Source of the DNA: Dysidea avara
Lineage: Eukaryota; Porifera; Demospongiae; Dictyoceratida; Dysideidae
Direction: 5' to 3'
Assembly (NCBI RefSeq): GCF_963678975.1
Contig: NC_089275.1
Location: forward strand, 36,804,819-36,868,818
Length of the DNA: 64,000 bases
Positions 29,008 to 64,000 of the stretch are shown in pieces (position 1 is the stretch's first letter; each line of letters begins with the position of its first letter). Below the pieces are notes generated by a model. The model saw nothing but the letters and a program-made list of their open reading frames with translations. It was not told the DNA's origin and made no database searches. Position numbers and translations under genes: made by a program.

Positions 29008-30208
<1,201 letters not shown>

Positions 30209-40762: not shown

Positions 40763-40992
40763 GTGAGAATGGAATGCAAGGCTCTCCTGGTAGTAAAGGT
40801 GACAGAGGAGCCATTGGATTCACTGGATCACCTGGGTCTCCTGGATCAACTGGTCCTCCTGGTCCTGTGGGAGCACAAGGTCCTCCCGGTCCTGTGGGAG
40901 AACAAGGTCCCCCTGGTCCTGTAGGAGAACAAGGTCCTCCTGGACCACCTGGTTCTGCAGCCACTCCTCCTCCTCCAAGTGACACATCCTAA
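40763..40992 (+). CDS. Transmembrane collagen B, exon 3 (C-terminal end)
   Basis: Acceptor CATTTCAG. The phase-1 join restores [13 protein letters not shown], keeping the Gly-X-Y register. It contains a near-exact tandem repeat of GPPGPVGEQ (three times), then GPPGPPG and a short tail [12 protein letters not shown], then TAA. There is no C-terminal cysteine, unlike gene A. AATATAAA near 41136 may serve as a weak poly(A) signal. Confidence 0.9.
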
Positions 40993-43293: not shown

Positions 43294-43429
43294 CTTTTTT
43301 AACTTATCTTTTTTTTCTTTACCACAGGAAGAAGAAAAGATGAAGCAGATGTAAATACTTTAAATATTTCTGATTTTATTAGTAAATTAAATGTACAAAT
43401 TATATATAATACATATATTTATTACAGAA

Positions 43430-45010
43430 CTCTCTACATGATTGTTTCTTTATAACTGAACACTCTCTACAAGGTGGCTTCTTCTAGCTGATCTCTCTAC
43501 AGGGTGAATTGTTTGTAGCTGAAATATCTACAAGGTAACTTCTTCTAGCTGATCTCTCTACTGGGTGATTTGTTTGTAGCTGAATTCTTTACAGGGTGAT
43601 TTGTTTGCAGCTGAACTATCTACATGGTGGTTTCTTTGTAGCTGAACTCTCTACAGGGTGACTTCTTCTAGCTGAACTCTCTACAGGACGATCTTTTCGT
43701 AGCTGAACTCTCTACAGGTGATTTGTTTGCAGCTGAACTCTCTACATGGTGGTTACTTTGTAACTGAACTCTCTACAAGGTGACTTCTTCTAGCTGATCT
43801 CTCTATAGGGTGATTTGTTTGTAGCTGAATTCTTTACAGGGTGATTTGTTTGCAGCTGAACTATCTACATGGTGGTTTCTTTGTGGCTGAACTCTCTACA
43901 GGGTGACTTCTTCTAGCTGAACTCTCTACAGGACGATCTTTTCGTAGCTGAACTCTCTACAGGTGATTTGTTTGCAGCTGAACTCTCTACATGGTGGTTA
44001 CTTTGTAACTGAACTCTCTACAAGGTGACTTCTTCTAGCTGATCTCTCTATAGGGTGATTTGTTTGGAGCTGATCTCTCCACAAGGTAATTTCTTCTAGT
44101 TGATCACTGTACAGGTGAATTGTTTGTAGCTGAACTCTCTACAAGGTAACTTCTTCTAGCTGATCTCTCTACAGGGTGATTTGTTTGTAGCTGAACTCTC
44201 TACAGGTGATTTGTTTGCAGCTGAACTCTCTACAAGGTGACTTCTTCTAGCTGATGTCTCTACAGGGTCACTTGTTTGTAGTTGAACTCTCTGCATAATG
44301 GTTTCTTTGTAGCTGAACTCTCTACAAGGTAACTTCTTCTAGCTGATGTCTCTATAGGGTCACTAGTTTGTAGCTGAACTCTCTACATGGTGGTTTCTTT
44401 GTAACTGAACTCTCTACAAGGTGACTTCTTCTAGCTAATCTTTCTACAGGGTGATTTGTTTGTAGCTGAACTCTCTACAGGTGACTTTTTTTCAGCTGAA
44501 CTCTCTACATGATGGTTTCTTTGTAGCTGAACTCTCTACAAGGTAACTTCTTCTAGCTGATGTCTCTACAGAGTCACTACTTTGTAGCTGAACTCTCTAC
44601 ATGGTGGTTTCTTTGTAACTGAACTCTGACTCTACAAAGTGACTTCTTCTAGCTAATCTTCCTACAGAGTGATTTGTTTGTAGCTGAACTCTCCACAGGT
44701 GATTTTTTGCAGCTGAACTCTCTACATGATGGTTTCTTTGTAGCTGAACTCTCTACAAGGTAACTTCTTCTAGCTGATCCCTCTACAGGGCGACTTGCTT
44801 GTAGCTGAACTCTCTACATGGTGGTTTCTTTGTAGCTGAACTCTCTACAAGGTGACTTTATCACATTAGCTGAACTACGTAGTTGAACTCCCTACATGCA
44901 AGGTAACTTCTTCTAGCTGATCTTTCTACAGGGTGAATTGTTTGTAGCTGAACTCTCTACAGGGCGATTTGTTTGTAGCTGATCTCTATACGGGTTACTT
45001 GTTTCTACCT
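43430..45010. repeat. 1.6-kb minisatellite with higher-order structure
   Basis: About 40 units of 36-43 bp are built on AGCTGAACTCTCTACA followed by GGTGNNTT and TTTGTAGCTG or TTCTTCTAGCTG. Unit types alternate. A block starting AGGACGATCTTTTCGTAGCT at about 43685 recurs almost unchanged at about 43931, giving a higher-order period of about 246 bp. Stops occur in all frames. It ends near a TGACTG motif (45033) about 600 bp before the Ulp1-MULE gene. Confidence 0.95.
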
Positions 45011-45299
45011 GATCTCTTAAATTCTTTTCATGGTGACTGCTCTATTAGAGTATCTTGATTTCGCACTTTCTACACCATGTTGGATTTCGTGTTATAACTC
45101 CGTGGCTTTAAGTCTGATTCTTCTACACCATTGAAGAGACTTTCTAAGATGATTACTCCATCTGTACAGCGAATTTCAAAGCATTACTCCAAGCGGTTTT
45201 TCTGGTAGGCGTAGCAAGTAGCAGTGGCGTAACTAAACCTTTTGTGCCCTTGCCACCGCTGCTCTAGAGCGCCAATTTCTACCAATTTTAACAAACTCT

Positions 45300-45465
45300 A
45301 GCTATCTATTGTAATTATAAGTAACTAACAGCTGTAATTATTAGTTATTGCTCTGTATTGTATGTATGTTTCTTTAGCAGTGGGCATCTATTATTCACTG
45401 ACCTTTAATGCAGTCCTGAACTGCATTAAAAAGTATTAAAATAAATAAATAAATAAATAAACCCG
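45300..45465 (+). mobile_element. LINE 3' tail
   Basis: A non-coding 3'-UTR-like stretch ends GCATTAAAAAGTATTAAAAT, then (AAATA)n. The form is that of a non-LTR element tail (compare 20460-20545 and 58490-58598). No coding part is left. Confidence 0.5.
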
Positions 45466-45549
45466 GGCCTACCCCTGGTGTCAGCAAATTATTAGATTGA
45501 AAACAGACATTTTGTTTACCGCGACGCCTGAGGTAGGCTTGGCCAACCG

Positions 45550-45640
45550 CCACGGGCGAATTTTTTTGGGCCAACTTTGTCTTAGTAACTTTTTAATTCC
45601 AACTTCACGCATACGTTTACCAGCACGCTAACAATACATA
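45550..45640. repeat. Inverted-repeat partner L (candidate TIR left of the Ulp1-MULE gene)
   Basis: GGGCGAATTTTTTTGGGCCA, ACTTT, CTTAG and CACGCATACG appear in this order. The same words appear in reverse complement at 55640-55730. The gene's first ATG (45644) follows immediately. Confidence 0.5.
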
Positions 45641-45643
45641 TTA

Positions 45644-48600
45644 ATGTTGAGGCGCTCGTGTGCGCCACGTTACTTTGGCGGGCTTTTTGAGATGGAAGGC
45701 GCATTGTCGAACTTACGCCGAGGCTACTGGGTCACTGACAATGTAAGGTTAACCATAATGATACGGTTTCATATTTTTTTATGTAAGCTGAAGTTTGGCG
45801 CTCAGCTATGTACTGACAAATGTTTGCACACGTGTAGGTCATTGGCAGTTACTTAAAGCTGGCAGCTTCCAGAGCAAAAGAGGTGAGCTCTGTCACATGC
45901 ACCACTATATGTGGTTAATGATTAAAAATTAGTCCTTACTCTAAATGTATACTAATTGCGGTTAATTCATACTTATTGCTAGCTAGTACATGGTGCATGG
46001 CTGATTATATGTTCATGATGTAGTGTTATGGAACCATTACTGAGATCTTCTCTAGTCAGTATTATGATGTTGTTAAAGCCAGGGGTCACATGGAGGCCAC
46101 AAAGTATTAGAAGAATAGAAAGGTTAATCATTCGTAGACTTTTGTGGTTAAATTGATATCCTTTCTCCAGGATGTAGTAAAAGCAGACCTTGTGTTGTGG
46201 TATTTGAATTCAGGACAGCATTGGACACTGATGGTAAGAGAAGGCATACTCCATTGTCCGCGTCATAATGTATTACTTCCAGGTGATATATCCTAAGTTG
46301 AAAACCATGAAGTACTTTGATTCTTTGATACCACAAACTTGTGCATACTTTGATGACACAGTGATCAGGTTTGTGTATTTTCCTTGTGTGTGTGTATTTA
46401 TGTACATAATTATTATCTTGTGTTATTTGGCAATTGTGTAATCACTGTGTACTACACAATGTTTCATGTTTCAGATAAATAATTGTTATTACTTTAGGTG
46501 TGCTAAGCAGGTTTGTAAGGAAATAGGTACAGTATCATCACATATCCCTAGATTTTCCCATTGTGTGTACATACATATCCAAGATAAAAATCATATATAA
46601 TAATATTTGACCACAAACTATCGTCTAATTCACATATATAGTAAGATTTCACCATAAACTTCCGACATCTATCATTCAGTGTTTAATTACATTCTTTAGG
46701 GATTTCTGTGATGCAGAGGCTGTTCTGTTGGGCTATGCTCCTTTTAACTGGACAGAATGGTCCTTTACAATAGAGCAGGTAAAGTTATATTATAGCTAAT
46801 GTCCTTCTATATGGACATTTTGGAACCCATCCATAGTCTAGATAACTTGTTCTATTTTCTTGTTACATACGTAGTTTAATAGATGAATTTATATTGACTA
46901 AACTCTACAGTACATAATGCATATATGTTGTGCACTGTAAGATAACTCTTTGCAGTGGTGGCAGAAGGCTGTAAAAATTGGGGGGGGGGGGGGGGGGGCG
47001 AGTATAGCCATTGAGGGTACCTGCAGTACAGTGCGTAAAGCACACATGCTTTGCATGCTCTCCCTCTAGGGTGTCTGGGGGCATGCTCCCCCAGAGAAAT
47101 GTTTGAAAAATGAGTGCTACGAGATTAAATCTGGAGGCATTGTTAGCCACTCAGTGGCAAAGTGTGTATACCACGTTGATCATGTGATATGATGTCACAA
47201 AACACATTTGTTGGGGAGGGCTCACCCCTCCTTTGTGAAAGTTGGGGGAGCTTCAGCCACCCCACCGCCGCCACTGATTTGGTCCATTGAACTTTCAAGT
47301 GATTTTTGTCCCACCAAGACATGTTCAAAACTTGTTGCACAATATAAACTGGTTTGTTGACAGATTGTGGTCGTCCACTGGTGCAAGTTTTTGACAATCT
47401 ACAGTATATCAATGCTAGCATGTGTCTTCAGCAAAATTGGGGTGTTGGTCTGAATATGTGACTAGAGTTTCGAAAACCGATCCAAATCGCACATTAGAAG
47501 TTTCGAGATAAAGATTTTAAACCATTGCACTTGCCAAGGATAGTGAGCACTCATATGAAATTTACACACGAGATGCATCAATTTATTACCTTTCAGACCA
47601 CTTCCAGTACTTGCAGCTACTTGTATAGGTTCCCGCCAAATAAGATAGAAAATCTGAGCAGTTGGACAAGTGAAGTAGTATCACCAGAGCTCACAAAGGG
47701 GTGGGAGGCGGGGGCTGGAGGTGGGTTAGGGGTTAGACTTTAAAATGGAGTTCTAGCGTGATTTGAAGCTCAGACACAAGATTACAGGGATGTACTGGCT
47801 ACTTAGTGGTTGATATGCAGCACAAACCACACAGAAAGCATTTGGCCAACTGTTAGAAGCCATCCACTCATTCACCATTGGTTCTCTTGAAGCCAGGTTC
47901 TTCAGAAGGCCAGAAACCGCCACTCGAGGTCATCACACCACCCAGAACAGACATCTATTAAAACCAGCCTCAAGTGGGTTGAGCAATGCTGAGGGTGAAA
48001 ACCAATAGTATAGTAGTGTAGCTATCCACTGGTGGTGTTAGTTTAAGTTTACCTGATGTGCGAGTTGGATCGGTTTTCCAAGATCTGGTCACATATGTGT
48101 ACCTAGCATGTTTTGAACATTCCTTATAGTCCTTTAATATTTACATACAGGATATTCCTATGCAATTGAATGGAAGTGACTGTGGTGTTTTCCTTATGAT
48201 GGTAAGATGATCAATGTTATTCATGGGATAAAATAATTTTATTCTTTGTATATGGTTATAGTATGCTCGCTGTATCCTTATGAAGGAACCCATGACTTTT
48301 GAACAGGTAACTTTTATTGCATATACATGTATACCATATACGTGGTTTAATTGGTGAGGATTTTAATTAGACAAATTTTAGCTTTACTCACTAAATAAAT
48401 AAGACCCCACTAACAAACTTTGCTATTGGTATCACATGACCTGGATCCGACCATTCATCAAATTAACAGTCTGCCAATATGTTTTATTTACCAATTCACC
48501 AAATACAATGCCCACCAATCATACCATACCGTAAATGACAAAAGGTTCATGGCATAAAACATTTGCGATTATCACTTTGCATCAAATGTGGAAAACCTGT

Positions 48601-49669
48601 GCAATTTGCTAAAGCAAGAAGTATGAGGTCTTGGACCAACAGTATACTATCTAAGCCTTTTGTAGGGATAACTGTCATGGTGTTTACCACATCTGCGAAA
48701 ATCGCAAAAGTTTTGTTGCCACAGATTTTTTGTCACTTACGGTATACTCAGTGTATAACCATGCAGATCAATTATATAAATATTTCACACTGTCACAAAT
48801 GATTCCCACTGGTATTACATTGTCACACTGCTGCAAAAGTCTGTATTCTGTGTCTATGTTCCTGTACAGTGGAACCTCAGTTATCCGGATCCCACTTATC
48901 CAGATTCTTGGCTAACCGAACTATGGAAATAACTGCTCAGATAGAGTAGTGACTGTTCTATTAGGGTAGTTGAATAATACTGATAATATTGTTGTTTAAG
49001 CTATTTTAAGGTTATTTATACAGTTTCAGAGATATCCATTTTTAGGCTTATGAACCACCCCTGGTCCCAAGGGGTTTGGATAACTGAGGTTCCATTGTAT
49101 ATAGAAATACAGGTGAAGACTGCTCTGGAATATCTAGAATGGACTGACCAGATAGTAGCAGTTGACTCGATGCTTTCTGGAGCCACTCTCCTCTCAATTG
49201 CCAGGACCTGACACTTTTATTCATCTCTTTCCTACATGCACTATACTGAATTATAAAACTGTTAAAGTTTGAGTAGTACAGTTGTACGCTAAAGCAATGT
49301 GAAGGTGTGAAAATGTTCTAATGGCAAGCTGTATATGATTGACTGGATACTTTAAACCATTATGTATTTTACATTGTAGAACTTTCCTTTCTTGACTTGA
49401 TACAGTAATTTAAGACATTTTTTAAGTTTGCTTTTACAAATCAAAATTTATCATGCTTCTTGTTGGTAGCTTGTAGCTATGAAGGGATATGTAAACAAAA
49501 TCAGTGCTATTATTATGTAAAAATTAAAAACAGCGATATAATTATATGTGTTACCTCTACAGTACATTTTAATATTACACAGGATGGTATGGGTACGACA
49601 AGAGAAGTAATTGCAACAGAAATAGAAAGGCAGGCTTTACAGAATTATTCTAATCCGCCATTGCAGAAG
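45644..49669 (+). CDS. Ulp1/SENP-type (C48) cysteine protease domain, 5' exons of a Ulp1-MULE gene
   Basis: Exons by GT-AG and phase: 45644-45742, 45838-45882, 46171-46233, 46283-46368, 46700-46778, 48151-48201, 48262-48306 and 49583-49669. The protein reads GYWVTDNVIGSYLKLAASRA, VLWYLNSGQHWTLMVIYP (catalytic His), MKYFDSL (catalytic Asp), IPMQLNGSDCGVFLMMYARC (catalytic Cys after Gln), then EPMTFEQDGMGTTREVIATE. This is the order of Ulp1/SENP deubiquitinase-like proteases, which cleave SUMO or related modifiers. The stretch between the second and third exons is shorter than in the family. A candidate extra exon near 46024 (ITEIFSSQYYDVVKA) has no donor in a fitting phase. The last exon joins in phase 0 to the transposase exon at 49722. 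The start could also be the in-frame ATG at 45692. Confidence 0.7.
46953..47275. mobile_element. hAT-like MITE inside an intron of the Ulp1-MULE gene
   Basis: Ends CAGTGGTGGCAGAAG and CACCGCCGCCACTG are imperfect inverted repeats, with a G-run next to the left end. No target duplication found. Confidence 0.5.
47455..48095. mobile_element. TGTGAC-family element inside an intron of the Ulp1-MULE gene
   Basis: Left TATGTGACTAGAGTTTCGAA pairs with right AAGATCTGGTCACATA. The arms continue through AAAACCGATCCAA and its complement. The body of about 640 bp has words in common with 62229-63348, and no gene. Confidence 0.7.
48529..48742. mobile_element. MITE with CCGTAAATGACAAAAG ends, TA flanks
   Basis: Left CCGTAAATGACAAAAG and right TTTTTTGTCACTTACGG are inverted repeats, flanked by TA on both sides. 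It lies within an intron of the Ulp1-MULE gene. Confidence 0.8.
48867..49097. mobile_element. Pogo/Tigger-type MITE, 231 bp, TA flanks
   Basis: Left CAGTGGAACCTCAGTTATCC and right GGATAACTGAGGTTCCATTG are inverted repeats with TA on both sides. A TGACTG motif (48949) lies inside. Same terminus group as 31876 and 3214. Confidence 0.85.
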
Positions 49670-49721
49670 GTACATGAGCCAATAAATCTTACATCAATAA
49701 ACTATATTTATTAATTCACAG

Positions 49722-52586
49722 TTGCAGTTGGATTCTTACCTTTCTGACACTTACCACCAGCCACTGCAGGACATGACATTGTCAGACAACACCAACAAAA
49801 TGACCCCAGTGTTGCCATCAACAACATTGTTGAATAGTAGTAGATGTGAAGATGCCACAGACAAACAAGTCAAAGCGGTCACATCTTCTGACAAAGAAAA
49901 TGAACCATATCAAACAGATAGTTCCATCAAAGCAATGTGCTGGGATATGCTTGATTCATCTTTACAAACTGTTTTACCAAACGAAGAGGGTGTAACATAT
50001 GTAGTAACAGAATTTAATGATTTGTCGACATCAAACTTCCCTGGGGCACCTGATCATGCCTTTGAAGCAACTGTTAGAATAAATGTAAAGACCAAGGATG
50101 CTGCTGAAGAATGGCTGCAAAAAATGATGGAACATAGTAAGTGCACATATAGACATACTCGAGGAAGAGCTCCTGGCCTAAAACGAGTACTGTACAAGGT
50201 AGATATGCACTGTCAGCATCACAAGAAGCAGCTGACACCGAAACAACAGGACAAAGCAACCATGGCACACGCCAAACCAGTAAGGAAAACATTTTTACAT
50301 GAAACGCGAAACAAGAAGCGCAACTGCCCTTCTAGTTTAAAACTGACTGTTATGGTCCCCCCTAAACATTCAAACCCCAAGAAAAAGCATCTGGAACCGT
50401 TTCTGTGTACACATCCTACTGTATTAAAAATTTCTTTCAATCACAACCACCTAATAAAATCTGCTCATGTTTTGTCTTTTCGCCCTGTTTCTGACGAAAC
50501 AAAGCAAAAGATCTTTGAATATTTCCAGAAAGGTCACACTGCTTCGTCAGCATATCACTGGCATGAAACTAAACTATTTTTAGACAGTAATGAAGACCAA
50601 ATGTCAATAGTGGATAGGGCAGCAAACCCCAACAAATCAGATTTTAGCCGTCTTTATGAGGAATGGAGAACATCTGAACTTGGGAGTGACAATGGGAAAC
50701 CAATGTTTGACCAACTTCAGGCAGAGATTGATGCCTACAATGCTGCAATGGGTAGTAAAGGTGGGAATGTCATCTTGCAGAGATTTGTGGGAACGGTTGA
50801 TGTAGACCATACATCAGATTCTGACAGTGAAGAATGTCCTAAAAAGAAGCGACTTAAATCTAATGAAAGGGAAGTACCAATGGTAGTGGCTATATGCACA
50901 CCACTAATGAGCAGAGTGCATCAGTTTGTACAACAATCTGGAGAGATGGTGTTCTGTGACAGCACATCAACTCTAGATCGTTTTAACACATCCCTGTTTG
51001 TCTTGTCAATGTCGAACGCATGTGGTGGCCTACCACTGGGAGTAATCATTACTTCTGATGAACAAGAGGAGACAGTAACCCAAGGCTTGAAGCTACTACA
51101 GCAGGTGATACCTGAAGAGGCTTTCTACAAGCGTGGAGGAAGAGAGGGCCCCACCATTTTTATGACAGATGACAGCAGCGCAGAACGTAATGCTCTACAT
51201 GAAGTCTGGCCACATGCACGGTTGCTATTATGTGCATTCCACTTCCTTCAATGTAAGTGGACTTGGCTTCACAAGGGTGCCAATCAAATAGCTAATCAAG
51301 ATCGTCAGATTTTGATGAGCAAAACTAAACAGCTGGTGTATGCTACGTCTGAGCTTATGCTTGAGCAATTGTACAAACAATTCAAAATTTGTGAAATAGT
51401 TAAAAAATATCCGAACTATCTGAAGTTTATTGAGTCTCAGTGGAGTCGTAGAAAAGAATGGGCTATTTGCTACCATACACACCTCATGACTAGAGGAAAT
51501 CAAACCAATAATTATGCTGAAGCCGGAATACAGATTGTCAAAGAGCTAGTATTTCATCGCATAAAAGCGTACAACATTGTCCAGATATTTAGTTTTATAA
51601 CAGAATGTCTTGAATTGTATTACACAAGAAAGCTGTTAAGCTTTGCCCACAATAGAGTTGATCGGTATATTTCATTGAAATACCAAGGTATGAAGAGTGC
51701 AGGGATAGGTACTGATGACATACAAAAACTGGATAAAGCAAATACCTTTTTAGTTAACAGTCAAACGGAGCGAGGTGTAAAATACTTAGTAGATATGAAT
51801 TTGGGTGTATGCAGTTGCAGAGGTGGGCAGGATGGTTCACCATGCTCACACCAGGCTGCAGTAGCAAAATTGTTTGGTATTTACAGTGTGAACTGTGTGT
51901 CTACCATTTCTTTGACTGCCAGACGGCAATTAGCTTTTATTGCTCTTGGTAGTAATGCTATGCAGGACAATGACTTTTACGCTTCGCTTCACCAACAGCA
52001 AGAAGACGAGACAATAACATGTAATGATGGAAAAGATGGAGAAGATTTGACGCTACTGAAAGCTTTAACAGCAGCAGACGATTATGTAACAGCAAGTGAA
52101 CAGGTTAATGAGGATAATGGTGCAAGCGGTAATGAGGATAATGATGATGTCCTCCAACAATTTCAAGAATTCTTTGAAGATATGAAAGAAAGAATTAAGG
52201 ACACTCCCATAGTCGCTGAAGGCACGAGAACTTTCTTGAGAAGGTACAAAGTACTAACAAAACCAGGCACATTTGTTAATGCCCGATTGTCAAGTGCCCT
52301 CTACCGTTTTGGGTGGGTGTTTGGTGGGACTATTTCAAGAAAAGACCACAGTGGTCGATTTCGTAGAGGTAGGAGAATACCTGTGAACCCCAAAGCTGCG
52401 GGACGTCGCCGAGGAACTACTTCAAAGGGGAAAGCAGTAGTATTGCAAGGAAGGCCTAAAGGCATGAAGTTAGCTACATTTCCTAAATCCAGCGCAAGCC
52501 TTACAATCAAGAAAAGACCAGCAAAACGACAACATTCCTTAAGCAAAAATGTACAAACAGGTGTACAAAATGCTGGAAGATGGTAA
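49722..52586 (+). CDS. Mutator-like (MULE) transposase with zinc cluster and SWIM finger, 3' exon of the Ulp1-MULE gene
   Basis: A single open exon of 954 codons entered after TTCACAG in phase 0. Residues about 100-260 form a DNA-binding zinc cluster with candidate ligands C164, C202 and H241/H243 (FNHNH), as in FLYWCH/FAR1/WRKY-GCM1-type domains. Residues about 385-620 are a MULE transposase. Likely catalytic residues are D413 (MVFCDSTSTLDRF), D483 or D484 (IFMTDDSSAERNAL, then CAFHFLQCKW) and E600 (NNYAEAG). A SWIM finger CSCRGGQDGSPCSH spans residues 697-710. The C-terminus is acidic, then strongly basic (GRFRRGRRIP and KKRPAKRQ), suggesting nuclear localisation. There are no internal stops and the key residues are present. 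It could be an active element or a domesticated gene. AATAAA near 52967 may end the transcript. Confidence 0.88.
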   Translation: MQLDSYLSDTYHQPLQDMTLSDNTNKMTPVLPSTTLLNSSRCEDATDKQVKAVTSSDKENEPYQTDSSIKAMCWDMLDSSLQTVLPNEEGVTYVVTEFNDLSTSNFPGAPDHAFEATVRINVKTKDAAEEWLQKMMEHSKCTYRHTRGRAPGLKRVLYKVDMHCQHHKKQLTPKQQDKATMAHAKPVRKTFLHETRNKKRNCPSSLKLTVMVPPKHSNPKKKHLEPFLCTHPTVLKISFNHNHLIKSAHVLSFRPVSDETKQKIFEYFQKGHTASSAYHWHETKLFLDSNEDQMSIVDRAANPNKSDFSRLYEEWRTSELGSDNGKPMFDQLQAEIDAYNAAMGSKGGNVILQRFVGTVDVDHTSDSDSEECPKKKRLKSNEREVPMVVAICTPLMSRVHQFVQQSGEMVFCDSTSTLDRFNTSLFVLSMSNACGGLPLGVIITSDEQEETVTQGLKLLQQVIPEEAFYKRGGREGPTIFMTDDSSAERNALHEVWPHARLLLCAFHFLQCKWTWLHKGANQIANQDRQILMSKTKQLVYATSELMLEQLYKQFKICEIVKKYPNYLKFIESQWSRRKEWAICYHTHLMTRGNQTNNYAEAGIQIVKELVFHRIKAYNIVQIFSFITECLELYYTRKLLSFAHNRVDRYISLKYQGMKSAGIGTDDIQKLDKANTFLVNSQTERGVKYLVDMNLGVCSCRGGQDGSPCSHQAAVAKLFGIYSVNCVSTISLTARRQLAFIALGSNAMQDNDFYASLHQQQEDETITCNDGKDGEDLTLLKALTAADDYVTASEQVNEDNGASGNEDNDDVLQQFQEFFEDMKERIKDTPIVAEGTRTFLRRYKVLTKPGTFVNARLSSALYRFGWVFGGTISRKDHSGRFRRGRRIPVNPKAAGRRRGTTSKGKAVVLQGRPKGMKLATFPKSSASLTIKKRPAKRQHSLSKNVQTGVQNAGRW

Positions 52587-55384
52587 TTAGCTGTCGGCTG
52601 CTATGAACTTGCATGTTGAGTTTGCTTGCAATTTTTACGTCATACAGTGTACACAACAGACATGCAATTTACATTTTTGTTCTGTATAATTATTACATTA
52701 CAACTGATAGTAATTCCATTGTATTTAAGTTCTCACAAACTTGCAGTATGTATCTTTACTATTTTGCCTTCCAGAGTTTGCTTATATATATATTATGTTC
52801 AGCCACATATCCTAACATACGTAATCAAGAGTAAATTACTTGCTTTAATGTTAAAAGTACAAGGGAAAACTATGAAAACCTATAGCTATTTCAGATTATT
52901 TCCAAAGTTCCAATCATAATTCCTAAAGTAATTGACTTATTAGCTTGAAAATTTAATAGCAGCTAATAAAACTAATAACAGCTAATAAAACTATCACCTG
53001 AACATGTCAGCCTGATACATACCATTCATTACAAACAATTAGGTACAGTGATATTCAGCAGATAGAAGCCATCAGTTCGTATTATCACAAATCAACACCT
53101 TTGCTGACAATGAAAGAATTAAGGTGGACAAAGGTAACTCCATGATGCATACTGCAGTATGCCATAAGGCATAGGGCTGAAGCAACATCTAGCATACTAA
53201 AATTGCCATATAAAAACAGTATCATTAGGGTCTGGTAGCCTTAGTTGTTATTGAGTTACACTTTCCTGAAGTCATCCAGCAGGCAGTTTGTCAGCCATTA
53301 TAAATAATATGCACTAACAGTAAGTTTCAAATTTATTGAAAGCATTTCAGGTTGTACTGAAAGGCGCCTTTAGGCTTGATTATACCAATGCTGTCAAGGT
53401 GCTATGAAGGAACAGCTAGATAGGGATGTATCGTGAGGCTGGGTTTCTGGTCAGTGACAAAGTGCAAACCTTCATGAACCTTTGTACAGTATGGTAATAT
53501 AACCAATGTACAGTAACATGACAACCAATTGCAATAATTATTAATGGTGGTACAGTGTGTGTTTCAAAGGTACGAGTGCATGTATGCACAATCAATACTT
53601 ATGACTAGTCATAAACCCAGCTTGTTCAGGGTTTCATAGTTGAATTGGGATTTAGTCTCACGTTCATGCATGCACAGAGGTGTATCCAGGATTTTTATAA
53701 TGGGGTTTCTTAACTTACAATCAGTTATAACAATATTCTAATAAAAGCACAATTGAATTATTTTTGATAGTGAGACTTACAGTAAAAGTCTTAAGGATTA
53801 TATTGTATTTGTACTCTCTAGCTAGATAGTATTAATAATTTTATTAATTGCACACTTACTAAGGCAAGTTATTTTATAAATTGATCTATTGTCAAAGAGA
53901 ACCCCCCCTCATGCATCCTTGACGGATACCATTTGGTGAGGTGTAGTAAGCAATATCCTATCCAACAAATGGATAGAACATCTAATACCAAAAAATGATA
54001 CAGTTTTTCATAGCGGATCTATAGTTTTATATTTTAGAAATGAATGTTATAGTTACCAGTTTTATACAAGGTGCTTCAGATAGATTATTGTTGTACTGCA
54101 CAGTAAGGAGATTTCACTTACACACGTTAGATTCTAATATTCAAGTCATAAAATAATTGTTCAGTAGAGCCCACTAAGCTAACAATTTCATTAGTAACTG
54201 ATTGGTGCAACACAATTTTAGTGGCATTAATGGCTGACAATACTGTGCATTACTGCAGCAACAGCAAGGTAGTCACAATGTAAGAAACGTTTAATAATAT
54301 TTGCAAGTTTTATTTAATTGTGGTATTGATCTGATACCAATACATATACAGCATAAATTACAGCCAACTCATATCAAAACTATTGTACGCGTTTTGTCAA
54401 ATTTGTTCTTTATAAATTTATTTTGTTATATTTTCCTAGGCCAGATTGACTAGCTTTGCTTACCACCCTCAGCACCAAAGAGGAGAGGTGCTGAACAACT
54501 GCAAAAAAGGACTTCAAACTGTCCCTAGGACCAGCAAAGTGGCCCATTTTCGGAATGCATGGGCGCATGCGAAAATATGTTTATGAAGTACTATTGAAAT
54601 TTATCTGCCTATGTAATATAAAATGCATTACAATCAAATGTCTGACCAGTGCCGGAGACCTCAGCTGAATGGCAGCAGTACCAAAAAGTAGCACTTTGGA
54701 AAGTCTGAATTTCATGTCCCCATTAAAATATACAGAGATATTAATACAAATGCTTGACTCACAAAGCATGGCAAATTTTAGCGCTATGGAGGTAAATCTC
54801 ACACCAAACAGCTGGTAGAGTACTCCAAATAATGCTATCCGTGATTATGGGGGTTTCCCCAAGTGTGATTCAAAATTGTCACAATTTTAGAGTAGTGCGC
54901 AACCGTCAATAAAATGTATGGCAGTAATTTCCGATCATTTGGACTTTGACGTACTAAGCAAGTTCTATCCGGTGTAATTGTGACTAAAGTGTATTGAACA
55001 AAAGAAAGCTAAAGGTTAGGTGATGATATTTTCGTCCGTGATAGATGGAAACTAATTTGGAAGGAGTTTTGAGAAGTTGTGTGTTTAAAATCTGTGTTTT
55101 GTGTACAAAATGTGCTAATACGCGTATTTTAATTTTTGGGGGGAAATTTGTAAATTATACAAGTTTTAATATACTATCAAGAGTTAATCCTCTCCCTATT
55201 ATTAACTCTTGGGACTATCATCAACTATATAAGGTCTTCAGCCTTAGTGTTTACACAAAGGAGATTGGTCACACCGACACAGTACAAACAACACCCCCAG
55301 ATCCCAAAGCGGAAAATTTTTACCCTATGCAACACCGCACTGATAGCTACCATGTATTCTAATGCACTAATCTTACATCCATAC
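52587..55384. other. Stretch after the transposase, no recognised gene
   Basis: Probable 3' UTR (AATAAA at about 52967 and 52985). A hAT-like remnant lies at 53674-53930 (CAGAGGTGTATCCAGG left end). The frames at 54581-54802 (minus) and 55045-55362 (plus) are open but unrecognised. Confidence 0.4.
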
Positions 55385-55561
55385 CAGAGTCTCACATTCA
55401 ATTAACAACATGGCTTCTGCAGGTTCAACACATCTAACGGCAGCTTTGCCCGCCTTTCTGAAAGGCCAGCCTCGATTTGGATGGAAAACACGCACACTTC
55501 GCAGGACCAGTACATGGCCTTGTCCATCAAAACACACGGCACTTACAGTATTGTTAATCAA
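55385..55561 (-). CDS. Exon resembling the N-terminal region of TSEN54
   Basis: The minus-strand frame reads VSAVCFDGQGHVLVLRSVRV, then NRGWPFRKAGKAAVRC and VEPAEAMLLIECETL, ending at a possible donor CTG|GTATGG. The last part resembles the PEEALYLLECG motif of the tRNA-splicing endonuclease subunit Sen54/TSEN54. The preceding hydrophobic and aromatic residues also fit that domain. No other TSEN54 exon was found downstream on this strand, so it may be a stray or captured exon rather than a working gene. Recognition is from memory of the family motif only. Confidence 0.4.
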
Positions 55562-55639
55562 TCAATGTTGGCATCGACACATCGACTACTGCTTATGTTG
55601 TCTCGGCGTATTGCACATTCCGTATTCTTTGAGTGAGGG

Positions 55640-55730
55640 TCTCGTGGTTGTATACGCATGCGTTGTTGCAGGATAAAAAATGGCTAAGTAAAAGTTGGCC
55701 CCCAAAAAAAATTCGCCGGGAACGGACCGT
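55640..55730. repeat. Inverted-repeat partner R (candidate TIR)
   Basis: Reverse complement of 45550-45640 over about 80 bp, with words CGCATGCG, GCTAAG, AAAGTTGGCCC, and an A-run before TTCGCC. Identity is imperfect. No matching target duplication was seen outside the two copies. Confidence 0.5.
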
Positions 55731-55795
55731 CGGACCGGAAGTTCCTGTTTAGCAAGCCAAGTGTTTAATACGTTCAAGTTTATTTTATGGACCAG
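55727..55795. repeat. Inverted repeat partner of 58806-58873
   Basis: GACCGGAAGTTCCTGTTTAG, CAAGCC, GTGTTTA and TTTTATGGACCAGAC recur as the reverse complement at 58806-58873, about 3 kb away. This may be the ends of a decayed 3.1-kb element. Confidence 0.5.
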
Positions 55796-55885
55796 ACTAA
55801 AAATAGTCTGTGTGCCAACCCACGAGCATTTTGCCAGCTCTGTCGTGCCCGGATGATTGTAGCTTCGCATTGGTCTGGTCACTCC

Positions 55886-57040
55886 CCAGCGTACTGGGCG
55901 TACGCGTATATCTAGCTAGCTATAGACCTGCAAAGCCATTTTAACTACAGTAACTGTAGTTTACAGTAAATAGCAACCTCAATAACAACTATTCACGGAT
56001 GAAGCTTGCTCGTTTATATCAGAGACGACGATTATCTTAGCAATCTTGCTAGCTAATGCTTTTAGCTACCTGGCAGCACAGCAAACGTTTAGCTATATAG
56101 TGTCGAGCATGCTGTTCAAGTGATAGAACAAATCAAATGATTGCAAATAGTGGTCACTCAACAATATATCAGTCTGTACATGTAGCTAGCAGCTTGAAAG
56201 CTTGTCATACAACCAAATAATCAAGCATGTGTATAGATAATGATTTGAAGCACAGCCTGAATTTGTAAGCAATACTGCATGACCAAGGAAAATATCTGTT
56301 CGAAGCATCTTTGTTGCCAAAGTAGCTACCACCGAAGCCTGAGGGTACCACTTTTCATTAGATCACTGATATCTGGTTGTCTTGGAATGTAGAATCACAC
56401 TGTTTTGCTGTCAGACTTTAAATGCCCTCTTCTTATAGAAGTTTCCTTTACTATAGGAAACATTGAAAATTATAGTGCTGTATGATCTTGAAGACATTTC
56501 AATAAATTCCCACAGCTGGTCATAAAGTAAAGATCCAAGTTGTCAACCGGCCAAGGCACAAAGCAATGGATAAGACTAAAGTAGATGTATTTTTATATGA
56601 CTGCCGGTTTGATTTTATTTAGAGGTATTTGAGATTGGTTTTCATAAGACTTTGTCTTCCTTGTACCAATTAACAAATAATAATAATATGCTAATAATTT
56701 ATATGCCACAGTCATCAAGATTCTCGTGTATGCATGCACGTCTACAAAATTTAGAATATGCATGGACTCTCTGTCTGCCGCAAACAAGCCATTTGAGCTC
56801 AAACATGATAGTTAGCTACATGCTATATAACATAAACGTATGTAATTCCTGGCCAGTGATGTCTAGATCTGTCACCATCATGTAGCTTGAATATAATTAT
56901 CACTGACTGCTGAGTATGTATAGAGTCCATTAAAAGCATTTTGGCAGATTGCACAGGGTAAACTGGCTGACATTGATAATACTGCAATTTGTCCATGCTC
57001 CTGTGGTGATCACTGCATGCTTTATCAGAAACCCTGAGTA
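55886..57040. other. Non-coding stretch, nothing recognised
   Basis: No supported gene; no clear repeat pair seen apart from TAGCTA-rich simple sequence. Confidence 0.35.
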
Positions 57041-57042
57041 TA

Positions 57043-57430
57043 GTGACTTGTATAATAATGCACATACATTATTATTATTATTAATTGTAATTACACCCAA
57101 TCATGAGTGCCCCATTGTCATTTAAAGTTTGCTTGTTAGATGGGGACATGATATGGAGGAAACATCAAAACCATTTAAGACAACATCAAGAAGCCACTGT
57201 CACTGAGCCATTTGGATCATCTGGGGAAGACCCAATAACAGAGACTGTTCCCTCCCTTCTGCCACGTCGTAACCCAAGACGTAATTGTACCAAACCTATA
57301 AAGGTTTCAGAATTATTTACTATTTAATTATAATTGCTCCATCAATTAAAGGAGGAGGAGGAGATGTAGCTAATGACTTGTAATAATGCATGCACATTGT
57401 TAGTTGTAATTACACCAAATCACATGCACG
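57043..57430 (+). mobile_element. Remnant of a Ty3/gypsy-type LTR retrotransposon
   Basis: The frame 57103-57327 reads LSFKVCLLDGDMIWRKHQNH, continues LRQHQ, and ends RRNPRRNCTKPIKVSELFTI. This is the usual C-terminal end of gypsy-type pol (chromatin-proximal integrase tail: DG..WRRH..HLR, then PRR...). After the stop comes a purine tract AAAGGAGGAGGAGGAG, then TGTAGCTAATGACTTG, a plausible LTR start. A similar sequence (GTGACTTGTATAATAATGCA ... TAATTGTAATTACACCCAAT) lies upstream at 57043-57103. The remnant may therefore be a collapsed element retaining bits of both LTRs. Confidence 0.55.
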
Positions 57431-58330
57431 TTGATGTAATACAACTTAGTTTCAGTTTCATAAAAATTGCTTTAGTTTCATGCTGTTGTGTCTCGTTCGA
57501 AGTGGGGATGTACCTGTGTGTTTTTTGTAACCATTGTGTGATTTGAATTTTTTTGAGTGATCATAACACCCTGATCTATAAGTTTCATGTGGAAACTAAA
57601 CTGCTACATGTACACTGTGGTACTGCGCATGAATCAGACTTGGGTAATATTTAACAAGTCAAGCATTTAAAAGACTTGCACACATGTCCTTTCTATCTGG
57701 TGTCACACATGCACATTGTGAACCTTCTTGAGCTCTGCCAGAAAGTTCTTTTGTTCCATTTTGATAGCAGTATGCAATGCCACATGATCAGATTTCCAGT
57801 CCTCTGTGTATAGTTATACAAACCAATATCACATGAAAATGTTACAGTATAGCTTACTGTGTAATATTACAGCAGTTTTTATAGTCTAGCATGCTATAGC
57901 TACATACGTAAAACACTATTGCAAGTATTATAAAAAAGGCCATAGCTATTATTTTTGACTGGCCAATTTTCCTTGATCTGTATCAGAAGAATAAGTGTTA
58001 ATTAATTTGATCAATGCTGAATCAGTCTGCTGTTGGTTACACACTGAAACAATGTTTTGGCTCAGCAATAGCTAACTAATACAGTATCCTATCCTGAAAA
58101 ATTTCTTGCTCAGACTGCTCAGCAGCTCAGTGATATACCTATAGCTATAGCTAGGCAACAACTAGCAACCGACTAGCAACAAATAGCTACAGTGGTAGTT
58201 TACTTCCATGGACTACACTCTTATAGGCTAAAAAATATGCCTACCCCGAGAACTGTGAAGTCACACATGGCCTTGCACATAGCTAATCTGCAATCTCTGT
58301 CTCTGAATCACCTGCACTGAAGCTTTAAAT
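57431..58330. other. Non-coding stretch, nothing recognised
   Basis: Possibly includes the rest of the LTR from 57365; its 3' border could not be placed. Confidence 0.35.
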
Positions 58331-58598
58331 TAACCATCTTACAACTTCGTGTACGGCTAAATCTTCACTCTTGTCCACAAACACCACAGCATATCGAAAT
58401 AGCTACTTCCCAAGAACTTCTCATTGATTGGAACTCATTATCGACCTCATCAATTGAAATGGCTGATAAGAAATTATTTCTAATTTGTAGCTAGCTAATT
58501 GCACATATGTTCTCCCCTTGTAAATCTCTCTCCCCCTTGCCCTGGGCATAATCAGTAAACACTGCCTGCCCAGTAATAATAATAAATAAATAAACTTC
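58330..58598 (+). pseudogene. LINE 3' end, frameshifted
   Basis: One frame reads TAYRNSYFPRTS and the next DWNSLSTSSIEMADKKLFL. Together they match the RNSFFPRT...WN.L tail of non-LTR reverse transcriptases. A one-base shift separates them. The 3' UTR ends (TAA)n(TAAA)n at 58575-58597. Confidence 0.65.
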
Positions 58599-58799
58599 GA
58601 AACAATGGCATACTACATTATGCTTAGATATAGCTACTGAGCACCACAGTCACCACTAACTCTGATGGGGCCCTAAAATCCGCGAAATCATCAGTTCTCA
58701 CAAGCTTTCAGCCTTTAGAGCCTTGCACACGGAATTCAAAAAGCACGCACGACCATGAAAGCATCGATCCATGTGCATGCATGCCTTAATTATACCTTT

Positions 58800-59340
58800 T
58801 CCGGTCTGGTCCGTAAAATAGACCTGCTAAACACCTAGCTTGCTAAGCAGGAACTTCCGGTCCGTAAAATAGACACCCCCTCTTTGCCTGTTTATTATAT
58901 TCCAGCCAAACTTGGTACCGCAATGCGCCTTTATACCCCCTTCTGTGTGCCAAATTTCAAGGCAATCGGATTAGGCGTTCGCGCTTTATAGCAGTTTTTG
59001 TAAGTGTGCGAAAATAGGAAGGAAAAAAACGAAGAAACTAAGCCAATTTTTGAAGTCGCATATCTCGGGAACGCTTGACGCGATTTCCCTCAAATTTGAA
59101 ATGTGGAGTACTGAAGTTGGAGGGCGTGTCCACAGCAAAATTCGTCTTATTTCATCAAGGCAATACGGAGCTACGGAGGTGCGAAAATTGTGTTTTCGTT
59201 CTTCCTGTCAATGTACTCACGGGTGTTGCGCGCCGGCTTCTTGGGCCGCACGACCTCGCGCACGACACAATACCGTGTGTCTTGATATATATACCACACC
59301 TGTGGATGAGATCAAAAACGCCGCGAAGTCAGTGATATAC
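58800..59340. repeat. GC-richer repeat-like block
   Basis: Starts with the inverted-repeat partner (58806-58873). It has two direct copies of GGTCCGTAAAATAGAC and then a relatively GC-rich 450-bp block. The two overlapping frames at 59050-59343 have no recognisable domain. Base composition is unlike the neighbours, suggesting a transposed sequence. Confidence 0.4.
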
Positions 59341-59510
59341 TGAATAATAATAGAAGCAACAAATTAAACATACAAAGAAAGGAGAGAAAAAAAAAATTCA
59401 ATAAGTTACTGCTTAATTAATGGGAGTCTTGACTCTACTACGGTATATGGCAGTTGGAAACCGAAAGTGGAAATAGAAAACGAAAATGGTTAAATCGTCA
59501 TATCAACTTG

Positions 59511-59590
59511 AGACGGTAGTGAGTCGTGCGGCCAAGAAACTACAAAGCGCACGCCCATATAAAAGACGCGCGGCCACTACTGTGATCTAG
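59511..59590. mobile_element. Short dispersed element (sister of 36580-36665)
   Basis: GGTAGTGAGTCGTGCGGCCA left and GCGCGGCCACTACTGTGATC right. The interior words CTACAAAGCGCACGCCCA are shared in pattern with the first copy. Confidence 0.65.
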
Positions 59591-59944
59591 CGCATCGTTG
59601 ATCCATTGACGTCTTTAGTAGGACTCCACCACCATTTTAGGCCAATGAATCTTGTAAGAGTGGAGTCTCACTTAACTTAATAATGCTTGGGCCTTGTCTG
59701 CTTGTTAGGCCGTTTATTCAGTTGACCAGCACAATGAGCACATGCTATCAGTGCTGGGGGTGGTTGGCAAGGGCAGTCCATCAAGCCCAGGAAAAAAATT
59801 TGCACCAAGCATTCAATTTTAGGGGATGCGAAAAGTAGTATTAGGGTTAGGGTTGGGTTCAGCTTTGGTTTCTTCTTCACCTTTAGGCTTCTTACTATAT
59901 ACTGAGACTACTACTTGAGTGACATTAATAAGATAGAAATGTAG

Positions 59945-60120
59945 GGGTAGTGGGTAGCTAGCAGTGGTTAGCACACTTGCCTAAAGCTCTAGTAGTCCAG
60001 GGTTTGAACCCCGGCCGGGATGAGTTTTGTGGTTTTTTTTTTTTTTCTCCGTTTAGTGACCCTTTTTTGTCTTCGGTTCAATAGCCGGTACGGCTTATTG
60101 AACTGCATGACTTTTGGTTC
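59945..60120 (+). mobile_element. tRNA-derived SINE
   Basis: Box-A-like GGTAGCTAGCAGTGG near 59953 and box B GGTTTGAACCC at 60001-60011, with spacing about 40 bp. A T-run body follows (about 60032-60046). The acceptor stem does not pair, so this is not a functional tRNA gene. Confidence 0.65.
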
Positions 60121-60144
60121 AATATCCACTGCCAAAATATAGCT

Positions 60145-60690
60145 ATATAACAGACATGAAAGTGTATCAGATTAAATTACTGTGGCCCAAACTATGATCA
60201 GAACATCATTTAGGATGCATGCTGAGGCTATTATTGTGGAAAAAATTCAGTGTGGAGCTGCCTGTTGGGTGTGTTCTAACAAACCTTTTCCGAAAAAAAA
60301 ATGTTACAGCAGCTACTTTACTAAACCAGATATCCTGGCCAACACTGCAAGGAAGAACAAAGACAATGTACAAACTTGCATTACAGCGAAACTTGTTAAT
60401 CAGGACATTTGAAAATGAGGACACCTGCATAGTCTGGACACTTGGTAATAATCCTAGATTATTTCTTAACATGAAAAGATACTTTTATAGTCAGGACATA
60501 CTTTGTTTGATCTAAATGTGTCCTTATTTTGTAGTTTCATTGTGTTTCCATGCACAAATAATTAATGCTTCAGGGAAATAAAGACGGAAATGATCAATTT
60601 TCTGTGCAAATGTGGCCATAAAGGTCACCAATGGTCAAATCTGTGATGGCATTACATCTAAAATGCACGTTATGATCATGAGGAGTATTA
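60145..60690. repeat. Copies of the 8700-9140 and 10793-11052 repeats
   Basis: The 60145-60525 part matches 8700-9140 in order. The 60570-60690 part matches the right arm of 10793-11052 (CAGGGAAATAAAGACGGAAA, GTGATGGCATTACAT). The two repeats are adjacent here but 1.7 kb apart at the first site. Confidence 0.6.
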
Positions 60691-61807
60691 TCATGAACCA
60701 CGGTAGTGGTTCATAATAGAGATAGCCTATGTTTTTTTACAACACTCAACTAAACACCACTTTAGAAATCTTTTCTAACCTCAAAAGAAGCCTAAAGTTA
60801 ATTTGGAAGAAGTTTAGGTCCACTAGCAAAGATGAAGTCAAAAGGACCTGTTTATAAAAAAACCGAAATCTGCCATTTGAGCCATTTTGTTCATTTTATT
60901 TTTTCTCACAGGGTTAGAGCAAAATGTGAGTACTTTTAGTGGATAAAAACTACAGACACTTTACAAAAACTTGCAATTCAAATCCGTAAAGCGTATTCCG
61001 TAAAGCGTAATCCGTGAAAACCGTCTCACTAGCTGGATTATCCACGGGTTCATTTAATAACACAATGCTACAAATACTTTGTTAAATTGTATCCTCGCCT
61101 TTTGTAGTTGTCCTGTACAGCAATTACGACCTTAGCGCTCAGCAGGCTCTATAGCTAATAATTATTTAATGGTCACGTGAACACGTTTTTTGCTTTGGAA
61201 AATTGCAAGGAGTAGGAAAGTGTCTGTATGTAACTTTCCTTCCTATGTCTTTCTTCATGTCCATGGCCTACTTTTAATGCATATTATAATGTTAACATCT
61301 ACTTTTGAGCAAATTTACTTCTTTTAGGTTCACTTTGCCAATGATCTTCTGACTTAGTTTCTGCAAAGGTAACCGAATGTTAATTATTATGTGTTAATAA
61401 GTTTCCAATCTATTCGCATTAACATGTTCATTTGGAACCTTATCATTACCTACATTCTATTAACCACGGTATATTAAGCTCATACCCGAGCAGCAATGTT
61501 GTTGTGTACCACTGTGTACTTGACTTATTGTGATCACCTAACTGAAGCCACACTACTGCTAACCACAGCATGCTATACATTTCCTATAGTTGGATATATC
61601 AAAGCTGTGTAGTACAAAGTATACATTCAATAGTAGGAATTATATTGGTGTTTGATAACACTGATAGTATTATCTAACTACTTAATATCTAATGTACATG
61701 ATGACTGACTTGATACTGAGTAATGTCAAGCACTACCAGCACCTCTTACTATCATGTTAGCTATCCATTATAAAAAGTAAACAAACCAGTGCAAAAATAA
61801 TTTAAAA
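60691..61807. other. Non-coding stretch
   Basis: Short tandem words (TCCGTAAAGCGTA, three imperfect copies at 60980-61020). Nothing else recognised. Confidence 0.4.
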
Positions 61808-62053
61808 ATTAAAACATGGGAATAGAGATCAAAACAAGTCAGCATGTTAAGCACACAGAGATCTCTATTTGGACTCAAATAAACATTTACACAGAAGTGT
61901 TCTCAGTATTTATCTGCCCAGAAACTACCGTTTTTTCCTTAGTTTCTACCATAACCATTGAGTCTAAAAAAGATCTCTGTGTGTTTAACATGCTGGCTTG
62001 TTTGACTCTTGTTTCTTTATGTTTTTCAGCAATCTATATTCCCATGTTTTAAT
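61808..62053. mobile_element. Palindromic MITE with ATTAAAACATGGGAAT ends
   Basis: Left ATTAAAACATGGGAATAGAG pairs with right ATTCCCATGTTTTAAT. Arms continue through AAGTCAGCATGTTAAGCACA and CAGAGATCT with their complements. The 78-codon frame across it is a by-product. Confidence 0.85.
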
Positions 62054-62228
62054 TTATAATTATGTGGAAAGTTTCATGGTTAAAAAAGTATACAGTTTGG
62101 CGAATTTGGGCCGCTAAACTGTGTAGTTATGCCTTATTGGAACAAATTAACAGACTTTCCACTTTATGATTAATATTATTGGTTATCATCTTTCACATAG
62201 AAAGATACTACTATAGCAAGAGGTAAAA

Positions 62229-63348
62229 TGTGACTGAATTTAACAAAACCCGGCTTCGACGCACAAAGCTTCGTTAGGAGATATGGCGATTTTAAGTAAT
62301 CATTGTGTAATAACTTACCACTGCTTACAGCTGTGCAAACACAATTTGCACCAAGTATGCATCTATTTACTAGCTATCACTGAGTGGGTGTATGCATTTC
62401 TGATACCCCCTGTTTTGGGCAGCTTTTCTCGAGCGGGTAATAATATCACAGGTAGAGCAATGGCGGATCCGGGATGGGGCATTTGGGGCAAATGCCCCCC
62501 CCCCCCCCCCCCCTCCACCTTGTGGAGGAGCGAGCCATGCTTCTGATTAAAACAGCTAGTAAATTTTATGTCAGGCCAACCAAGATCAGTTTAAAACTTA
62601 CGAAAATATGCACATTTTACTAGCATTTATTACAAATTCACCTGAGACCAAAGCGAACCAAAGTCAAACTAACTGTAAAATAGTCACCCAGCACCTTCGT
62701 GCGTACTAAGCGCCTCTAAAAATAATTATCGTATTGCTGTTATTTAAGACATTCAGAGCCTTTTAAACAGTTTTAAGACTTCACAACCATCTGAAAAGGC
62801 CAAAATGGCAAACATCAACAGTGAGACACCACTAAGAGGTGATTATTTGCTGCTTTAAAAAAGCAGCACTGAACTATAGAGAATATGGTTCTCCCCATGC
62901 ATGCAACCACCTACAACTTACCCTGTTTGTGCCCCTCCCCTAGCCAGCTCCTGGATCCGCCCCTGTAGAAGTAACAGGGTGAGAGGGTGGGCTTAATATA
63001 GGGGTATAAAATGAAGCAAGAAGACGAATGGAATCCAGAGGCCAAGTTTGGGCTCTCCATGGCCCTCAAATCACTCCAAATTGACTGAGAACACTATTGG
63101 CGAGCTCTCTGTGAAGTCCCAGCTCACTACACACCATTATCACAAAGCCATGGCCATTCAATGGCACCAATCTCCCACTCGTGGCTTTGACAGGGTCGGA
63201 AGAAAGCTGCCACAGAAACCAGACTTGCCAGTCCTGAAGGAAGTACAGTGTGGAATATGATAGTGTATTAGGCCAGCAATCCATTTCTGGTAAAAACGTA
63301 AGTTTGATTTTGTGTGTGTGGAAGCCTTGTTATGTGAAATCCGGTCAC
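62229..63348. mobile_element. TGTGAC-family element interrupted by a hAT-like MITE
   Basis: Left TGTGACTGAATTTAACAAAA, then CCCGGCTTC, pairs with right GGAAGCCTTGTTATGTGAAA, then TCCGGTCACA. The interior frame (about 63000-63260) has no recognised domain. The nested element is at 62458-62965. The layout mirrors 2011-3153. Confidence 0.6.
62458..62965. mobile_element. hAT-like MITE (GGCGGATCC ends)
   Basis: Left CAATGGCGGATCCGGGA and right TCCTGGATCCGCCCCTG are imperfect inverted repeats. A run of about 18 C lies near the left end. The 8-bp flanks do not match cleanly. Confidence 0.7.
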
Positions 63349-63404
63349 AAATATTGTTTGCTCAGTTTGTAGTGGGTAACCAGCAATTTACTTGTGAAGA
63401 CAAA

Positions 63405-63640
63405 GTAGAATCAGATTGTTCTCTTCTTTCTGAGAGCAGAGTAACATTTTGAAAACTTCTGCTGTGATACATATAGGTATGCTACAAAGCATAACTGTTT
63501 TAACGGATTATGAGTTTTCACTCTTACACTTGAGCTGTAATGTTATGAATGGTTACCTAAGGATGGATTCCCCCAAAACATGTTGTTGTCAAATGTGTGT
63601 ATATTGCCTTATATCTACATATGCAATGAATCGCATGAAA
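63405..63640. repeat. Second copy of the 9985-10390 repeat
   Basis: Same ordered blocks as at 9985-10390, with several short deletions relative to it. Confidence 0.7.
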
Positions 63641-63657
63641 ACTGAGAGTACCCCTCC

Positions 63658-63911
63658 CTATAGACCCTTTACAGGTAAGCTGCTGCCATAGCAACATCCG
63701 CCATCTTGGAGAACAACCTGTCTGATAGCGTAGGAAGGAGCAAAGGTTTAACCTGGTCAACCTATTCCGTAGAATGCAGAAGAAGCAGCTCTATTTCCTG
63801 GAACTGTTTTACTCTTATAGAAACCGATGCTATCAGGGTTGCAAAAACGGATTGTACTCCAAAGATGGTGGATGTTGCTATGGCAGCAGCTCATTTGCAA
63901 AGGGTCTATAG
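63658..63911. mobile_element. MITE with inverted repeats of about 54 bp
   Basis: Left CTATAGACCCTTTACAGGTA and right TTTGCAAAGGGTCTATAG. The arms share GAGCTGCTGCCATAGCAACA and TCC(G/A)CCATCTT. The frames inside are by-products. Confidence 0.85.
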
Positions 63912-64000
63912 ACCTTTATTTACATAATCCATAGGTCTCCAGGATTTTTGATGACTTCCAGGATGACCTACAGTAGATACTAGTGTTATATCATTATAGG

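Follow-up and report, generated by a model that had tools for sequence, protein, structure and literature searches.

Introduction

Mutator-like elements (MULEs) are DNA transposons akin to IS256. In the sections of PMC2836005 available to us, Ulp1 domains are reported in the Mutator transposons of hydra, lancelet, Arabidopsis, maize, rice, and melon, and the Ulp1 domains of Ginger1 and Mutator transposases are aligned. As described in the excerpted text of PMC2528002, the Kaonashi (KI) MULEs carry a ULP domain in reverse orientation and are without terminal inverted repeats (TIRs), and the ULP-carrying MULEs of melon and rice have the domain in both orientations, with melon also possessing TIR-MULEs. 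The available portion of the MULE survey PMC6446971 gives TIR lengths of 14 to 500 bp and duplications of 8 to 11 bp and includes a cnidarian MULE with an ovarian-tumour gene; the word Ulp1 is absent from that portion. For arthropod MULEs, the part of PMC13359780 at hand describes TIRs that are mostly 20 to 95 bp long, with G/C in the first three bases, and no Ulp1. Among the matches listed in a search of open PMC papers, no title or abstract opening was on the Ulp1-MULE family described here.

We analyzed a stretch of 64,000 nt from the genome of the sponge Dysidea avara (here called the window), which lies at C4:36804819-36868818 in an assembly of 550.8 Mb and 108 contigs. The segment at positions 45554-55717 of the window is very probably an old copy, about 10.2 kb long, of a Mutator-like DNA transposon that has multiple subfamilies and in which an Ulp1/SENP domain is N-terminal to a MULE transposase with a SWIM motif. 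The analysis established which domains are present, that they are fused in related copies, that the element has inverted repeats and multiple copies with a young burst, and that the window copy carries a nonsense codon. Fusions of this kind are already known; Ulp1-encoding Mutator elements have been published for hydra, lancelet, and plants.

Results

The transposase exon and its relatives in the genome

The transposase exon (49722-52586, forward strand) consists of 954 codons and a stop, and its frame is intact in the window copy, with an ATG of its own at 49773. The two domains assigned to it by a first-pass annotation of the same sequence both scored above their Pfam cut-offs: MULE (PF10551, about 50952-51251) matched with an E of 8.7e-9 and 36.2 bits, versus a cut-off of 27.6, and SWIM (PF04434, about 51783-51866) matched with an E of 1.9e-4. 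Pfam gave no FLYWCH match in this exon, the ZSWIM1-3 profile PF21056 remained below threshold (20.2 versus 27.2 bits), and an IS256 match from NCBIfam was weak (E 3.5e-5; 23 bits versus a cut-off of 150). Three motifs contain the acidic residues that we take to be the DDE catalytic residues: CDST, with the proposed first residue at 50958-50960 on the forward strand (position computed from the motif); TDDSSAE, from 51165; and TNNYAEAG, with its Glu at 51519-51521. When collections of prokaryotes and viruses (phages, viral contigs, and genome contigs) were queried with the transposase exon, no relative was found. A structure model of 50880-51920 built from the single sequence had a mean pLDDT of 37.9 and was unusable.

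The transposase protein matched at least 53 pieces of the 550.8-Mb assembly, several of these rows being fragments of one broken copy, and nine of the 53 (the window copy and eight others) were nearly full-length without a stop. Four loci, L010 on C5, L012 and L019 on C7, and L013 on C4, were 99.7 to 99.8% identical to one another over about 4.68 kb, which points to a recent burst. Of the 30 loci L005 to L034, 18 had a C48 match at an E of 0.01 or better upstream of the transposase and in the same orientation, with the window copy and a relic on C14 included in this count. The remaining 12 had no C48 match at an E of 0.01. Most of these are partial, starting within the transposase; L016 and L030, however, include its N-terminal part and yet gave no match, and L027 gave only a weak one (E 0.27). 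In L012 and L007, the C48 match was limited to the part with the catalytic Cys (19.6 and 18.7 bits, respectively, versus a Pfam cut-off of 20.7).

Only two copies are close to that of the window: the C14 relic, which is 74% identical at the nucleotide level and was the one other copy found by a DNA query with the window copy, and a cousin on C12, which is 65.6% identical. The same DNA query found no recent copy of the window's own subfamily in the assembly. The C14 relic is dead, with frame breaks and stops in its transposase. Its C48 exons 7 and 8 were located upstream of the transposase, exons 1 to 6 were not found within 10 kb upstream, and nothing beyond about residue 620 was found within 7.8 kb downstream. 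The window copy is best read as an Ulp1-MULE DNA transposon that is old and almost solitary.

The protease exons and an in-frame stop

The first-pass annotation had counted eight short protease exons ahead of the transposase exon. Rebuilding the model gave nine short exons (45644-49669), which together with the exon at 49722-52586 form one frame of 1,144 residues without a stop, with GT-AG junctions and compatible phases; the junctions held and the count did not. Taken together, the nine short exons matched Peptidase_C48 in Pfam with an E of 2.3e-16, and the three catalytic motifs that had been claimed were located in exons 3, 4, and 7, in agreement with a C48 protease; among solved structures, this part is most similar to SENP1 and SENP2. 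All nine exons are on the forward strand. Exon 1 (45644-45742), with the start codon and the first helix, which has the WVTDN motif, was aligned to SENP1/2. Exon 2 (45838-45882), exon 3 (46171-46233; catalytic His, QHWTL), exon 4 (46283-46368; catalytic Asp, YFDSL), and exon 6 (46717-46778) follow from the rebuilt model and from comparison with the C12 cousin, as does exon 8 (48262-48306), for which the C14 relic could also be compared. Exon 7 (48151-48201; catalytic Cys, QLNGSDCG) is part of the model and is conserved in both the relic and the cousin, and exon 9 (49583-49669), in which the C48 domain ends, is contiguous with the transposase frame in the relatives. Exon 5 (46498-46526) is 29 nt long and is the least certain; neither it nor exon 1 was recovered in the C12 cousin, and both draw their support from the window.

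A further Ulp1 exon, located at 46024-46122 on the forward strand, had been overlooked between exons 2 and 3. It is in phase 0 with both of its neighbors and closes a gap in the C48 alignment at this place. Its inclusion raised the alignment scores from 56.1 to 76.9 bits for SENP2, from 57.6 to 73.5 bits for SENP1, from 32.4 to 48.8 bits for SENP3, and from 26.3 to 38.4 bits for yeast Ulp1. In a shuffle control, the SENP2 score was reached by 3 of 2,000 shuffles and the SENP1 score by 35 of 2,000, and the SENP2 score was reached by none of 991 other AG..GT candidates (84 to 114 nt) taken from five stretches of the window. The gain against the Pfam profile was small, with 64.5 bits compared to 60.9 to 65.0 bits for four shuffles, one of which scored higher. 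The C12 cousin has an equivalent of this exon at the same place, open and with 17 of 32 residues identical, and this homology is the support that carries most weight. A shorter version of the exon (46060-46122) had weak support and was replaced: its Pfam score was 63.0 bits versus 60.7 to 61.8 bits for six shuffles, its SENP1 and SENP2 scores were above those of two shuffles and its SENP5 score was below both, and its score was reached by 279 of 5,000 shuffles and by 45 of 843 background candidates.

The overlooked exon contains an in-frame TAG at 46108-46110. A complete protease is therefore not encoded by the window copy, in which a complete open C48 domain is absent. Thus, the exons, domains, and fusion that had first been observed stand, but one exon was missed, and with it the break in the protease frame; the nonsense codon makes a working protease in the window copy doubtful. 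The exon would be either skipped, leaving a C48 domain that is short of 33 residues, or included, giving a truncated protein. Skipping, together with splicing of a 52-nt intron ahead of the transposase exon, would still allow the window copy to yield the protein of 1,144 residues. In favor of this outcome, the other exons have retained their frame and splice sites, the skipped exon has a length that is a multiple of three, and its donor, GTTAAT, looks weak in our judgement. We nevertheless consider this outcome unlikely, as skipping loses 33 residues of the C48 fold that are aligned by SENP1, SENP2, SENP3, SENP5, and yeast Ulp1, and the C12 cousin retains these same residues.

The junction between protease and transposase

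In the window, the last protease exon and the transposase exon are separated by a GT..AG stretch of 52 nt (49670-49721, forward strand), which serves as an intron in the fused model and has no counterpart in two relatives. In the C14 relic, the last C48 exon is continuous with the transposase frame, without an intron and over 232 open codons. The C12 cousin, in which the transposase frame is open, also has its last C48 exon joined to the transposase in one intron-free frame. These continuous frames indicate that the family encodes one polypeptide. The fused polypeptide that had been proposed from the window thus survives as the architecture of the family, although the window copy requires a splice at 49670-49721 that its relatives do not; the 52-nt stretch is either a gained intron or a lesion.

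The window on its own could be read differently, as an Ulp1-like gene ending at 49714 followed by a separate transposase gene starting at 49773. Reading through the 52-nt stretch from the unspliced last Ulp1 exon leads to a stop (TAA at 49712), two AATAAA motifs lie within the stretch, and an ATG is available at 49773. Two genes are nonetheless quite improbable, both because the C14 relic and the C12 cousin join the two parts in a continuous frame and because the gap from stop to ATG is only 58 nt, so that a promoter would have to sit within the Ulp1 gene.

Element ends and surroundings

The 5' TIR (45554-45627, forward strand) is matched in inverted orientation by the 3' TIR (55643-55717, reverse strand), the outer end of which is uncertain by one base. 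The pair is 75% alike over 77 gapped columns (E 4e-7) and 84% alike over 70 ungapped columns, and its gapped score of 57 was reached by none of 300 shuffles. In an ungapped search, the pair was indistinct from shuffles (14 versus 11 to 16 in 20 shuffles), and a search with the TIR 14-mer, two mismatches allowed, gave two matches, as many as were given by 11 of 100 shuffles. The match to the termini of other copies decides for the window TIRs: the outer 14 nt of the 5' repeat, GGGCGAATTTTTTT, equal the terminus of the young copies on C5 and C7, and over the terminal 14-nt stretch the 3' end departs from the young copies at a single position, the first base. A segment of the 5' repeat has a match in the C12 cousin as well (75% over 56 nt; E 3e-4), and a DNA search of the assembly with the window 5' TIR found itself and no other copy. 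The inverted repeats at the ends of the C5 element are 39 nt long and 92% alike, and a C7 copy is flanked by a 10-bp duplication, GGTCCGGTCC, inside GGTCC-rich repetitive sequence. The window copy retains no target-site duplication (best 6 of 9), and the C5 copy has none. It had been proposed that many copies with TIRs would mark an element, and many copies, a young burst, TIRs, and the 10-bp duplication on C7 were found.

Several features were observed around the element. A GC-rich CCGGTCCGACGGTCCG-type motif lies directly outside the right TIR (55731-55797) and also flanks the C7 copy, which is possibly a target preference; a stretch neighboring this motif recurs in inverted orientation at 58804-58864. 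On C5, from 19451906 onward, the young copy L010 adjoins a second TIR-like sequence in direct orientation, which gives the appearance of two adjacent elements. The ends of the window element lie in CpG-rich islands (45051-45950 and 55351-56150), with observed/expected ratios of up to 1.32 and 1.13, respectively, compared to a window median of 0.28; the window has 13 islands of this kind in all. A large tandem array of units of about 31/61 nt (43427-44855) precedes the element by a short distance. The two long Ulp1 introns contain short inverted-repeat elements (47454-48096 and 48865-49099, with arms of 44 and 29 nt that are 86% complementary), which seem to be other transposons inserted there. 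Further away are a collagen-repeat coding sequence (29008-30252; Pfam Collagen, E 7e-58) and a tandem 27-nt unit that is collagen-like by eye (40852-40943). At gathering scores, nothing in the window was matched by Rfam, and no Pfam family was hit when reading frames were scanned from 52587 to 56502 (E up to 1) and from 55801 to 64000 (E up to 0.1), although genes with short exons could escape such scans.

Selection and the possibility of domestication

Between the window copy and the C14 relic, dN was 0.144 and dS was about 2.0, near saturation, for a dN/dS of 0.07 over 523 of 607 aligned codons, the 84 codons in poorly aligned stretches having been dropped. For the protease exons, comparison of the window copy with the C12 cousin gave a pN of 0.28 and a pS of 0.87, which is saturated, over six exon stretches with 119 codons and with the stop left out. 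These values indicate that both halves have been under purifying selection in the lineage. Such selection fits a transposon that needs function to spread and, taken by itself, is no proof of domestication.

Domestication had been put forward in the first-pass annotation and was not supported, as many relatives, a young burst, and TIRs are present; the same relatives and termini give no support to a single-copy domesticated gene without element ends. In a narrower form, the window copy would have become a host gene that keeps its transposase and SWIM parts, as with FHY3 or ZSWIM proteins, and the protease would have decayed. The 954 codons of the window copy are intact even though the nearest relatives found are a dead copy 74% alike and another 65.6% alike, and its solitary state with an intact transposase is also compatible with this reading, as are the transposon-like inverted repeats in its introns and its CpG-rich start region. 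For animals, the text available from PMC10027918 reports FHY3-type MULE genes, with three in Amphimedon. Moreover, on the assumption that the two arms started out identical, 5 to 10% substitution per site would be expected to produce about 7 to 12 stops in the exon, and 0 are seen. This last argument for host selection is weakened, however, by the young C5 copy, the arms of which are already only 92% alike, so that arm divergence overstates age. The window element also retains its termini, related subfamilies moved recently, and purifying selection is equally expected in a transposon lineage that is still moving. We therefore regard domestication of the window copy as very unlikely and retain the reading of an old transposon copy. 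That a host SENP gene captured a transposase exon, to which the closeness of the C48 part to SENP1/2 among solved structures might point, has next to no probability and is disfavored by the copy data, with C48 and transposase occurring together at many loci and, in the C5 and C7 copies, inside the element termini.

Discussion

What had initially been interpreted from the window holds for the fused polypeptide as the architecture of a family; it is not supported for domestication and is doubtful for a working protease in this copy. From what is seen in related families, the transposase would bind the inverted repeats, with its zinc motifs on the ends, and would move the element by DDE cut-and-paste. 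The protease, where intact, may strip the transposase, or chromatin or repair proteins in its vicinity, of SUMO or a modifier like it. A role of the Ulp1-type proteases of transposons in repair around transposition has been proposed (PMC2836005, in the section available). Our tentative suggestion, which we hold at somewhat less than even probability, is that the fused Ulp1 is functional and under selection within the transposition machinery, as a SUMO protease in cis, and that it has been kept by purifying selection across subfamilies saturated at synonymous sites, and that copies like that of the window are stranded once a protease exon breaks.

The window copy, an old one whose protease is broken, is of little importance alone. 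The family adds an animal type in which Ulp1 is fused N-terminally to a MULE transposase and in which the pair has been retained over long divergence. Its near-identical related copies with open transposase frames provide a natural system for the question of why SUMO-pathway proteases recur in transposons.

Among host genes, those of the FHY3/FAR1 and ZSWIM1/3 type have in common with this family a MULE core and SWIM; to our knowledge, they are without TIRs and without C48, whereas the family has TIRs and many copies. Ginger1 resembles it in having a transposase that carries an Ulp1 (or OTU) domain but differs, according to the section of PMC2836005 that describes it, in its Gypsy-integrase-type transposase, its C-terminal Ulp1, and its target duplications of the CCGG or CCGT type. 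Closer are the MuDR-type elements of hydra and lancelet in Repbase, which, like the family of the window, are animal MULEs encoding Ulp1; this likeness is one of description in the available text of PMC2836005, as distinct from one of sequence or domain order. With the Kaonashi elements and the ULP-MULEs of melon and rice, as outlined in the excerpted text of PMC2528002, the family shares a MULE together with a C48 domain. Compared to Kaonashi as characterized there, however, its C48 domain is N-terminal, on the same strand as the transposase, and in one frame with it in relatives, and TIRs are present; on the strand and the TIRs, membership of the window copy in Kaonashi was rejected.
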